This document shows positions 1 through 13,712 of a stretch of DNA of 64,000 bases, in pieces. The notes beneath the pieces are model-generated. The model was not told the origin of the DNA and did no database searches. It saw nothing but the letters and a program-made list of their open reading frames with translations. Origin of the DNA: Owenia fusiformis (taxonomy: Eukaryota; Annelida; Polychaeta; Sabellida; Oweniidae); NCBI GenBank assembly GCA_903813345.2, contig CAIIXF020000012.1:14118932-14182931 (forward strand), written 5' to 3'. The position numbers and the translations under genes are program-made. The first letter of the stretch is position 1; the number at the start of each line of letters is the position of its first letter.

Positions 1-21
1 GATGCTTAATGCATTCAACAG
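1..21 (+). CDS. ATP2A (SERCA): SERCA alternative exon, copy 1 (3' end only)
   Basis: The window opens in the last 21 bases of an exon. Read in the phase of the later copies they give MLNAFN plus the first two bases of a serine codon, followed by a gtaacc donor. The later copies end in EMFNALN, EMFNALN and EMLNAMN with the same phase and a matching donor, so this is taken as the first of four tandem copies of the exon encoding L7-8 and TM8 of the sarco/endoplasmic reticulum calcium ATPase. The rest lies outside the window, so its loop sequence, its cysteines and the calcium-binding glutamate cannot be checked. Confidence 0.8.
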
Positions 22-1376
22 GTAACCTTGACCCTATGACCTATGACCTCTCACTTTGAGGTCCCTCAAGGTCAACTGGCCAATTCTCTTTTTAAGACTT
101 AAACCCTGTTTACATTCATTCTGGTTTGTACAATGGAGTACAATAAACCTAAATGGATTTACAGGAAGTAACAAACACAGGAGCGGCAATATGGATTCTT
201 CCCAGTTTTAACTAATTAATCCAACCAATATTTATCTTCTAGAAACCCTTACTTTTGAAATCATAATACCTGGATGCCATAGTAGAATCTAGAAACTTCT
301 CTACCGGTAGAATCTAGAAACTTTTTCTTCCAGTTTGCTTGTTCTAATTTTTATCTCTCTTGATTCTGTTTTGAATTCCTTGTTTTAATGAATCATTGCT
401 TTTATCTTCTCGATGAATGCCATACAAGCTTCGTGTACCATTCCTTTTTCCTTTTATTTAAGCATCAGCTTTTTCCTGATTCCACTGCAATTATGAATAA
501 TATTTCTCAGCCATTTTCATTCCCTGGAACCCCTGTCCCGAAATCTAACATATCTTCGTCTAGTTACAGAATACACTACATGCACTGCACTGCATTTGTA
601 TAAATGTGGTGGTACCCTTGGTAACGGGAAGCAGGATATAAACTACTTGTACCTCTCTATGTTTAACCTAGAGCTAAGCACCGACAATCATCAATGTTTA
701 CCACATTTCTTTTGAAAACTTGAATTATTTGCTTATAGTGCTTACTTTAGTCATTAGACTTAGAGCAATGCAGAAAAATAATTCAAATTTCCAAAATTAA
801 CCAAACCTGAGTTATCATTTTCTATTTTAGATAGATCTGCAACTCCTGAATGAAATAATTGTCTTAGTTCTTAAACATGTATCTGGATTTCCCAATTTTC
901 GGAAAATGAATAATACTATAAAGTCATTAATCGTCTCTTGACACCAATATTAACCATAACATCATTTCATTTATAGCTATAGATGTTTTCCTATTCAAAA
1001 TCCATAGACCGTCAGTCGAAACCTGATCCTTCACTTCCTTGGAATTTAGTCTCCCACAATGCCTATATTTAGCCATTGTCAGTCAAGCTTTGCTAAGAAT
1101 ATCATAATTTTGTTTTTCTCATCCATCTGCTGAATTAGAAATGCATTATGGGAAATCTCATCTGCTAAATAGGTTGCATTATGGGAAATTGGCCTATTTA
1201 ATAATTATATAATGTTAAATTTCTTTTTGGATAATAAATGCCAAATGATATGAATGAGAAAATTAAAAAAATTATGAAATCCTTCCGCTAAGTCTTGTGA
1301 ACTTGAACCCTGGCAATCTTGACCTTCACCTTGAGTTATATCACACCATGAGAGCATGTTAACATTATATCAACAG
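22..1376 (+). other. SERCA intron between exon copies 1 and 2
   Basis: AT-rich intron. No further exon copy was seen. A short motif, gcattatgggaaat, occurs twice near 1143-1190. Small open frames here, such as 388-603, match nothing recognisable. Confidence 0.6.
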
Positions 1377-1510
1377 ACCCACGCTATGCAGTGCCCAGCC
1401 GAACCTAGAATGTTCCCAGGAATATCCTGTGACGTCTTTGAGGACGTTCATCCCATGACAATGGCCCTCTCAGTCCTAGTTTGTGTTGAAATGTTTAATG
1501 CTCTTAACAG
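1377..1510 (+). CDS. ATP2A (SERCA): SERCA alternative exon, copy 2 (L7-8 / TM8)
   Basis: A 134-nt exon flanked by a caacag acceptor and a gtaacc donor. It starts in phase 0 and leaves two bases for the next exon. It reads [15 protein letters not shown], then ISCDVFEDVHPMTMALSVLV and CVEMFNALN. In SERCA this segment is the lumenal loop between TM7 and TM8 and the start of TM8. The two cysteines 12 residues apart match the lumenal disulfide pair (C876/C888 of rabbit SERCA1), and the E of VEM matches E908, a calcium ligand of site I. PMTMALSVLV is a family hallmark. The same length and phase as copies 3 and 4 imply that only one copy can be used per mRNA without a frameshift. Confidence 0.96.
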
Positions 1511-1639
1511 GTAACCACCGTCCCCACAGTGACCATATATGGTCATAAAATGCCCTGAAGTTTGGATTTTGGATTTATTGTGTGATGGTGTTTAATAACG
1601 AATTTGCTAACATTTCAGTGTGTAGGTTGTCAGTATAGA

Positions 1640-3185
1640 CGGGTAGGAAGGAGGGGTTCCCATGCACCCGAAAGATGTATTTTTTTAATGTACATTTTTG
1701 TAATCTTAAAGGTCCATACTGAAGATTTTTGCATGTTCCCAGAATGAAATATTGTCCCATGGTATCTATTGGCGGCCATCTTGTCGGCCATCTTGGATTT
1801 TTGAAAGAGTTGATGTTAATTATCTCAAAGTACAATAACTTTCAGAGTTTTGAGATTTGAAAGCTGTAAGTGGTACCAAAATGAAGCTATTATAGTATCC
1901 TTTATTATCAGATGCAATAATTATGCAAATTGTCTCATTTGCATAAAATGTGACATCATCAATCAATCAATCAATTCTTGCCTCTTTACAACGGTATCGC
2001 ATTATACCTTTCTGCCTGAGTGATCAGTCTTAGTCATTCATTCACATAAATGAATTCAAATATATAGGTACATTAATTTTGAACATATTTGCAAAAACAA
2101 ATTCGAAACTTTTGGAAAAACATTGTCAGACACATGATAATGTTACTGAAAAGAGGCGTGGCACTTCTTGTGAAAGAATTGATTTTAATTATCTTAAAGC
2201 ATAATAACTTCCACAGTTTTGAGAGTTGAAAGCTATAAGTGGTACCAAAATGAAGCTATTATAGTATCCCATATTATAAGATGTAATAATTATGCAAATA
2301 GTCTCATTTGCATAAAATGTGACATCATTAATCGTAATTTTTGCCTCTTTACAACAGTATCGCACAATACCTTGCTGCCTGAGTGACCAGTCTTAGTCAT
2401 TCATGAACATAAATGAATTTGAATATATAGGTACATTAATTTTGAACATATTTGCAATTGAAAGTTTTGGAAAAACATTGTCAGACACTAAGTTATAACA
2501 CTTCACATGATTATGTTACTGAAAAGGGGCGTGGCACTTCTTGAGAAAGAGTTGATGTTAATCATTTCAAAGTACAATAACTTCCACAGTTTTGATAATT
2601 GAAAGCTGTAAGTGGAACAAAAATGGAGCTATTATAATACACTTATAAAAATGCAATAATTATACAAATTTTCCCATTTGCATAATATGTGACAACCTCT
2701 ATTATGTTTGGCATTTTTCAATGGTAACGACCAATATCTCTCCCTCTGGGTAACAGTCTTGGTTATTCATGAGCATGTATGATTTTGAATATCTAGGTAC
2801 ATTAATTTTGGCACTTCTTGAGAAAGAGTTGATGTTAATCATTTCAAAGTACAATAACTTCCACAGTTTTGATAATTGAAAGCTGTAAGTGGAACAAAAA
2901 TGGAGCTATTATAATACACTTATAAAAATGCAATAATTATACAAATTTTCCCATTTGCATAATATGTGACAACCTCTATTATTTTTGGCATTTTTCAATG
3001 GTAACGACCAATATCTCTCCCTCTGGGTAACAGTCTTGGTTATTCATGAGCATGTATGATTTTGAATATCTAGGTACATTAATTTTGAACATATATGCAA
3101 TTGAAATTTTGGAAAAACTTTGTAAGAAATTAAGTGTTGACACTTCACATGATTATGTAACTGAAAGGGGGGGGGGCACTTTTGT
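1640..3185 (+). repeat. Left inverted arm with four tandem units
   Basis: Units start near 1804, 2172, 2545 and 2822. Each runs from gaaagagttgatgttaat through a stretch containing gcataaaatgtgacatca to a cgtggcacttcttg junction. The third unit is shortened to about 277 bp and is nearly identical to the matching part of the fourth, a recent local duplication. Confidence 0.8.
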
Positions 3186-3599
3186 TCAAAATGTTAACTT
3201 CTAAACACTAATATCAAATTCAAGAGCTGAAGCTCCTCTAGCAGAGTCATGTAGATAGAGCCCAAATGTTGCTCATTGGTGAAATGTTGGCAAAATTTTG
3301 CATCTTGTATGCACTGCTCACAAGTACATGAAGTGTTCATTATGATAGTGTAATTCCAATATGACAGCACAATACAAGTCAGGCTATTTTATTGTCACAT
3401 ATGCAAAAGTTGATCTGATGAGACATGTTAAAAGTGGTAGTGGTTAATAACGCCCAGATCAAATTAACACAAGATAGATACTGAAGGTAGGCCCAGATCA
3501 AAGTATGAGCATCCTTACCCTCAATCATGACGCCATCTGTATTGTCCATTTGTGGGAGCTGTAACCCAAATAATGAGTATTAATTTAATATATGTGTCA

Positions 3600-12450: not shown

Positions 12451-12680
12451 AATAGACCTTTCCAATAAACACTGCCACCTTTTGGTACATTAAAGAAGCT
12501 ATGATATATTGGCTAGATTGATGACATCATTGTTTGTAGGTTGCAATTTGTCCAATCAAAAATAGGATTAAATTTGACCTATTGCTAAAGTGCAACCAAT
12601 GACCTAACAATCTCACCAATATATTATAGCTTGCTTGATGAACCAAAACTAGGTGGGAGGGTTTATTACAAATGTCTGTT
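12451..12680. mobile_element. Foldback MITE, ~100-bp arms
   Basis: The left arm contains gctatgatatattgg and gaggttgca-like blocks that return in the right arm as their reverse complements (ccaatatattatagc, gtgcaacc). The arms span most of the element, so the transcript would fold into a long hairpin inside the SERCA intron. Confidence 0.6.
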
Positions 12681-12841
12681 GTAATACATTTCATAATATA
12701 GATGCCAAAAGTGTTATTTTATAGACAAAGATCATGTTTTTTCCATTGTTCTTCTGTTTAGCACTAATATGACAAAGTATAGCTGCTATGCGAACTAGAC
12801 TAGTGTGTTTGTTGAGTATTAGTAAACACTGTATATGTGTC

Positions 12842-13082
12842 TAGCCCATAAGAAAAAAACATGGCGGTCACAATTTGAAGTGAAGTTGAAAAACCAAGGA
12901 ATAAAGTAAACAGGCTTATAGGCTATACTTTAAATTGATAGAAATGCACAAAAAATGCAGCTTTGTTCAACTTGGCTCCCTTTGGAAAACGGAACATGCA
13001 AAGATGCGAAAACAGTTTATTGATATTTAAGAGAGAAAATATTAAATAGGTGTGACCGCTTGAGCCAGTTTCTTATGGGCAA
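12842..13082. mobile_element. MITE with ~30-bp inverted ends
   Basis: The left end, gcccataagaaa followed by ggcggtcaca, mirrors the right end, tgtgaccgct followed by tttcttatgggc. The interior includes a copy of the dispersed caaggaataaagtaaacagg repeat, which recurs through the window. Confidence 0.6.
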
Positions 13083-13594
13083 CTTGTTATTCAGATAGAA
13101 GCATGATTTGCAAGACCAAATAAGTACATATTATCTAGATCATTTTAATATAGATTTTGAATTCTAGTAGAGTATGTAAAATCCATGTGTAGCATTAGAA
13201 TTTCTTAACAAAATTCATTTTTATCATTCAAAATGTCAATTTTCATATAAGAAAGACTTACCGGTAAATGTTTTTTTTACGATTTTTGTATTTGAAAGCT
13301 CAAAAAATTTGTATAAAGCATCAAAAATGGCCCTCATGTCTCCTTTCACCAATAATATTTTAATGACTAGCATGCTTAAAATATATTTCAAGGTTTCCTT
13401 TAATTAATGTAACTGGTGGTATTACTTAAAGGGACTTAAATGATATCCACACACACTACAGTGCCTTTCATTGTGTAAACATCACCTGAATATGTAGTTC
13501 CTTTAGTAACAACACCAATCACAATGATTATGGGACACCCTATTTATCATTTCGTATGACGTGTTTTTACATCGCATGCCATGTCCTTTTTCAG

Positions 13595-13712
13595 TCTGTC
13601 TGAGAACCAGAGTTTGATCCACATGCCTCCATGGAGCAACAAGTGGCTAGTGTTCGCCATCTTACTCTCAATGTCTCTACATTTTATGATCCTTTACTCC
13701 AAGGTCTTTAAT
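13595..13712 (+). CDS. ATP2A (SERCA): SERCA constant exon (TM8 end, L8-9, TM9)
   Basis: A 118-nt exon with a tttttcag acceptor and a gtaagt donor. Its first base completes the serine codon left by any of the four alternative exons. It reads [20 protein letters not shown], then [27 protein letters not shown] and MPPW are SERCA signatures between TM8 and TM9, and the hydrophobic stretch [14 protein letters not shown] is TM9. The exon ends in phase 0 and joins the exon at 14206. The splice phase fits all upstream copies, which supports the mutually exclusive model. Confidence 0.97.

Follow-up and report, generated by a model that had tools for sequence, protein, structure and literature searches.

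SERCA calcium pumps have C-terminal isoforms (SERCA1a/b, 2a/b and invertebrate tails), and mutually exclusive exons (MXEs) occur in sodium channels, calcium channels and NCX. Here, we analyze 64,000 nt from the annelid Owenia fusiformis (assembly GCA_903813345.2, contig CAIIXF020000012.1, positions 14,118,932 to 14,182,931 of the forward strand). This whole stretch, called the window hereafter, has 33.3% GC and no N; it opens inside a SERCA gene carried by the + strand, one internal exon of which is present in tandem copies. These copies very probably form a mutually exclusive cluster, through which the luminal M7-M8 loop would be exchanged together with the transmembrane segment M8. As for the C-terminal isoforms, splicing would yield several pumps per gene, and a candidate retained-intron tail (14324–14399) is also found here; however, these isoforms swap the tail, whereas the cluster would swap an internal luminal loop and M8. 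As in the channels and NCX, a short functional segment would be exchanged within a conserved membrane transporter, but those belong to other protein families and the segment concerned here is the luminal loop of a P-type pump.

According to extracts of a survey of human MXEs (PMC5740500), the human clusters consist, like the SERCA cluster, of tandem homologous exons of equal length, in one frame and with GT-AG borders, and 377 clusters (60%) have exons whose length is not a multiple of three (non-3n). Unlike these clusters, the SERCA cluster is predicted here from genomic DNA; terms starting with SERCA or ATP2 are absent from the main text of the survey. Dscam-type arrays, as described in extracts of PMC6071210, share with the SERCA cluster the presence of more than two alternatives. 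The original prediction, made by a model from the letters of the window, knew of no description of a multi-copy exon for the loop between M7 and M8 (L7-8). The open-access literature searched does not contradict it: no multi-copy SERCA L7-8 exon appears in the titles or abstract starts among the matches listed from the open-access literature, most subscription journals being outside. The kind of splicing is already known and the new element is its position in SERCA.

The SERCA gene comprises the following features in the window.

1–21, + strand: 3' end (last 21 nt) of copy A, coding for MLNAFN followed by AG, with the donor CAG/GTAACC; the remainder lies beyond the window edge.
1377–1510, + strand: copy B, alternative exon of 134 nt ending with AG, matching SERCA1 in PDB (E 6.8e-10).
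10305–10438, + strand: copy C, alternative exon of 134 nt ending with AG, the nearest of B, C and D to human SERCA2 (30/44).
10822–10955, + strand: copy D, alternative exon of 134 nt, coding for THQSQCLVQDLPYQGVDCDVFEDNHPPTMALSVLVMVEMLNAMN followed by AG.
13595–13712, + strand: constant exon of 118 nt directly after the cluster, LSENQSL...YSKVFN.
14206–14323, + strand: constant exon of 118 nt ending ...KFTD, with the donor ATG/GTAAAA.
20650–20693, + strand: last coding exon, 44 nt, ending VAEAVDPMAAKKFQ and then a stop; it is short and was located by frame.

Coordinates, AG/GT borders and open frames confirm the prediction of three complete 134-nt copies and the end of a fourth with a common phase and common splice sites. 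B, C and D all have an AG acceptor, a GT donor, one common phase and no stop, and the features expected of MXEs (homologous neighbours, equal length, same phase, GT-AG borders, absence of stops) are found in the three complete copies. The final AG of each copy and the first base of the exon at 13595 make up a serine codon. The introns between the copies, calculated from the coordinates, measure 1355 (A-B), 8794 (B-C) and 383 nt (C-D). The visible end of copy A is identical to B and to D at 16/21 nt and to C at 15/21. When a matrix made of the last 21 nt and the donor of B, C and D was run over the whole window on both strands, copy A ranked fourth with 28.6, behind the training copies (40.1, 38.5 and 34.2) and ahead of the next site at 11.0.

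The eight possible combinations of B, C and D (zero to three copies) were translated into the constant exons, copy A being excluded as its start lies outside the window. Any single copy gives the full 137-aa frame (3/3), which bears out the prediction that any one copy fits the next constant exon. The prediction that two or no copies break the frame also holds: a stop follows after 2 codons when all copies are skipped, and premature stops occur at 71, 79 and 79 codons in the three pairs and at 71 in the triple inclusion. Exactly one copy is thus the sole productive outcome among the readable copies. It had further been proposed that a non-3n length is the signature of mutually exclusive splicing; this stands insofar as only one-copy messages are productive, but the length itself is no signature. 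Extracts of PMC5740500 report exon-joining reads for 83 (22%) of the human non-3n MXE clusters, and the non-3n frame alone therefore does not prove exclusive splicing. These joining reads, together with the early stops caused by skipping and whenever more than one of B, C and D is included, would also suit extra copies acting mainly as regulated poison exons, where nonsense-mediated decay sets the level of SERCA instead of different pumps being made. However, poison exons need no conserved protein, whereas codons 1–15 of B and C differ by 0 replacements against 8 silent changes, and we regard this explanation as very improbable.

The predicted SERCA identity of the gene is upheld by PDB and NCBIfam matches that favour SERCA over SPCA. 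A 45-aa query of copy C, with R as last residue where the spliced product has S, matched 17 PDB sequences, all of them SERCA1 or 2. The D isoform (137 aa) matches SERCA2 in PDB at 3.6e-45 versus 1.2e-4 or worse for three SPCA (ATP2C1) sequences. The C isoform matches the SERCA-type NCBIfam model TIGR01116 at 1.8e-39 over its C-terminal part, with a score under the full-length cut-off of the model, as the window has the C-terminal stretch alone, and the PMR1-type model at 1.1e-10. The general Pfam cation ATPase C-terminal domain is found in the three isoforms. The M8-M10 region is thus nearer to SERCA than to SPCA.

Two probes from the human SERCA2 sequence were compared to the window. The tail (E up to 0.5) matched the cluster and the constant exons at 13595 and 14206 and no further SERCA exon in the window. 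Residues 1–875 gave two chance matches at E 4.8 and no SERCA exon, the catalytic P, N and A domains being absent from the window; exon queries B and C each gave one further chance match (E 0.27). As neither probe reveals a further SERCA exon here, the duplication involved this one exon rather than a larger part of the gene. This bears on another explanation, namely that the copies come from a partial or tandem duplication of the SERCA gene or that the array is an assembly error. The window begins inside copy A, with the upstream part unreadable, which would leave room for either. Nevertheless, both probes show this exon alone to be repeated in the window and the flanks of the copies are unrelated in sequence, unlike what is expected for merged haplotypes; we consider such an origin hardly credible. 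Tandem gene duplication was rejected within the window, the probes matching only the cluster and the exons at 13595 and 14206.

In the PDB alignment, exon positions 2–44 correspond to SERCA2 residues 871–913. Both loop cysteines (C875 and C887 of SERCA2), the loop residues that separate and follow them, and M8 all fall within the exon. In agreement with the prediction, the three complete copies keep the cysteines, at exon positions 6 and 18, as well as the calcium-ligand glutamate of M8 at position 38, which corresponds to E908 of SERCA1. A strong variation of the loop had also been announced; both sequences quoted are correct, PAEPRMFPG in B and C and LVQDLPYQG in D, but B and C share the former and differ after it, so that the complete copies have two loop types. 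Identity to SERCA2 is 24/44 for B, 30/44 for C and 23/44 for D over the exon, 2/11, 4/11 and 3/11 between the cysteines, and 15/18, 16/18 and 13/18 over positions 27–44.

The copies are old, with protein-level selection acting on the complete ones. Their age is indicated by the unrelated flanking introns and by silent sites that are diverged to saturated. Indeed, the BLAST similarity between B and C ends 5–7 nt beyond the exon on both sides, the 50-nt flanks on each side share 24–38% identity across the three copy pairs, and silent divergence reaches 0.52 for B-C and 0.96–0.97 for the pairs with D. Replacement divergence is 0.17 (B-C), 0.28 (B-D) and 0.34 (C-D). Selection on the protein is shown by the retention of the frame, splice sites, cysteines and M8 glutamate despite the silent divergence. 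In Fisher tests using rounded site numbers, constraint over the whole exon has p=0.0009 for B-C, 1.6e-11 for B-D and 1.6e-8 for C-D; over B-C codons 1–15, 8.0/9.3 silent sites have changed versus 0/35.7 replacement sites (4e-8). Moreover, for each pair the amino-acid differences are fewer than in all 20,000 random placements of an equal number of base changes. Since 22–44% of these placements are stop-free, the lack of stops alone is weak evidence. PAEPRMFPG has been held fixed in both B and C, whereas the stretch that follows it (ISCDVFEDVHP in B) has changed freely or adaptively between them. In D, the sequence after the loop (VDCDVFEDNHP) resembles B while the preceding loop differs.

The pyrimidine tracts of the alternative acceptors (B 0.50, C 0.65, D 0.50) are poorer than those of the constant ones (0.75, 0.80 and 0.75). 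Donor scores, built on vertebrate frequencies, are 9.91 for D (the strongest of six), 7.24 for A, B and C, which have the donor CAG/GTAACC in common, and 8.93 and 5.04 for the constant exons. Three further features lie in the introns of the cluster.

1643–9289: repeat expansion in the B-C intron, with inverted repeats (1643–2533 and 8394–9289, 85.7% identical) around further repeats.
4788–5903: open reading frame of 371 codons in the B-C intron, with no match in Pfam.
10735–10803: short inverted-repeat element forming a strong hairpin, whose ends carry TTAA and CCCT...AGGG and which terminates 18 nt before copy D.

The block 1643–9289 is probably mobile DNA. The ends of the short element are reminiscent, in our opinion, of piggyBac-type miniature elements, and no second copy of it was found in the window. 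The region 10640–10830 folds with a z of -4.39 relative to shuffles, none of 200 shuffles being as stable. The element sits between a good pyrimidine tract (about 10681–10698, by eye) and the acceptor of D, and copy D may be regulated or weakened by it.

Both the weak acceptors of B and D, with the repeat element before D, and the repeat load of the B-C intron would fit the normal use of a single copy, such as C, which is the closest to human SERCA2, the others being dead or dying leftovers of duplication. Against this stand the conservation of replacement sites far beyond silent ones in all three whole-exon pairs, with the silent sites of D near saturation, the number of amino-acid differences, which for each pair falls below all random placements, and the retention of frame, splice sites, cysteines and glutamate by the three complete copies. 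The use of a single copy is therefore considered very unlikely, and we infer that all copies would be used in splicing.

Several results weigh against a mutually exclusive cluster. Taken alone, neither B-C codons 16–26 (3.5 silent and 12.5 replacement changes, Fisher 0.4) nor codons 27–44 (3 silent and 5 replacement changes, Fisher 0.36) can be separated from neutrality, and donors do not split alternative from constant exons. The acceptor of copy D is poor: the 60 nt before it contain six AGs and the repeat element adjoins it, and D may therefore be weak or recently disabled. No device enforcing exclusion was identified apart from the reading frame. Steric hindrance would require shorter introns than those present (1355, 8794 and 383 nt). 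Docking/selector pairing was searched as ungapped matches in both orientations between five intron pieces, in 20 comparisons with 15 block shuffles for each, with the repeat-filled 1643–9289 omitted and the 5' intron outside the window; 19 of the 20 comparisons did not rise above their shuffles, two of these equalling them, and one did (10623–10639 with 12720–12736, score 14 versus 12). This last match was ordinary in a duplex-energy test of the C-D intron and the one following D, the hairpin being omitted, as 34/60 dinucleotide shuffles were at least as strong.

A docking/selector system is not supported by the intron pieces tested, as their matches were ordinary in comparison with shuffles, the 5' intron lying beyond the window. 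Dscam-type arrays, according to extracts of PMC6071210, have competing docking/selector RNA pairing, whereas none was detected in these pieces. The simplest model for the SERCA cluster would be the regulated use of weak acceptors combined with the decay of frame-shifted products.

In human SERCA2a, extracts of PMC11826342 describe the M7-M8 loop, on the basis of mutations, as a site of luminal-calcium regulation: five acidic residues of the loop were studied, among which E877, D878 and E883 matter most, transport is abolished when the C875-C887 bond is broken, and the store is depleted in C875A. In SERCA2b, extracts of PMC8148124 report redox control through two luminal cysteines in a loop named L4, taken to be the M7-M8 loop. 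The five acidic positions of SERCA2a read A,E,M,P,S in B, A,E,M,P,D in C and V,Q,P,Q,D in D, leaving one, two and one acids, respectively. The net charge of exon residues 1–26 is -3 for B, -1 for C and -5 for D, with -5 for SERCA2. As the acids at 877 and 883 are absent from all three copies and the charge of D equals that of SERCA2, a simple explanation by charge is not convincing, and exon choice may instead act through shape, partners or M8. That the choice has a functional consequence remains a tentative proposal, to which we grant somewhat less than an even chance.

Two other observations concern the 3' part of the SERCA gene. The segment 13767–13855, inside the intron that follows the constant exon 13595–13712, is a partial duplication (93%) of 13656–13744, that is, of the 3' half and donor of this exon; by eye, read-through into the duplicate stops in frame just past the first donor. 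An open hydrophobic extension (14324–14399, + strand) is predicted from translation as a possible alternative C terminus for messages that keep the last SERCA intron, and the donor that precedes it (ATG/GTAAAA) has the lowest score among the six SERCA donors.

Relatives of the exon pattern were found in none of 111 stretches from viral contigs and in one of 179 from genome contigs, a record of a Verrucomicrobiaceae metagenome-assembled genome (MAG). This record carries, at 4905–5403, a eukaryote-like SERCA fragment with an interrupted frame and both loop cysteines kept; tblastn (E up to 1e-3) shows one copy of the exon over its 10.4 kb. The fragment is probably a eukaryotic contaminant of the bacterial MAG.

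A human probe revealed a syntaxin-1-like gene at about 58498 to 29010 on the - strand; four of the five syntaxin exons submitted have Pfam SNARE and Syntaxin matches. Three of its exons are present as pairs.

53199–53092 and 52651–52544 (to the last full codon), - strand: linker exon pair.
49882–49772 and 49710–49600, - strand: second SNARE exon pair (second half of the motif).
32183–32103 and 29087–29010, - strand: transmembrane last exon pair.

The SNARE exon copies are identical at 93/111 nt, and their differences amount to 14.7 silent and 3.3 replacement changes. Only 61 nt of intron lie between them, a shortness that suggests steric exclusion. Both recognised genes have duplicated exons, a hint, within one window, that tandem alternative exons may abound in this lineage. 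Elsewhere, long tandem repeats with repetitive open reading frames occupy 15124–15843, 27560–28252 and 61997–62785. Rfam gave nothing in the window at gathering scores.

Taken together, these data lead to the following model for the SERCA cluster. An old tandem duplication of one internal exon would have generated interchangeable cassettes, three complete and a fourth partly visible. Productive messages would carry exactly one copy, and messages with skipped or doubled copies would meet an early stop and probably be degraded. Depending on the copy chosen, the pump would differ in its M7-M8 loop and slightly in M8, the structural disulfide and the M8 calcium ligand remaining constant, so that several pumps could probably be made from one gene. 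The choice of copy might then tune the response of the pump to calcium or to luminal partners in the store, perhaps according to tissue. A more speculative extension, less likely than not, is that the luminal calcium-sensing module exists as a bank of at least four interchangeable exons, through which tissues would set store filling or redox control by splicing instead of using separate genes or C-terminal tails. The natural versions of the loop and M8, at least three and apparently selected, offer a ready set of variants for testing the function of the loop. If the model is true, SERCA isoform diversity would lie here inside the pump and not at its tail.

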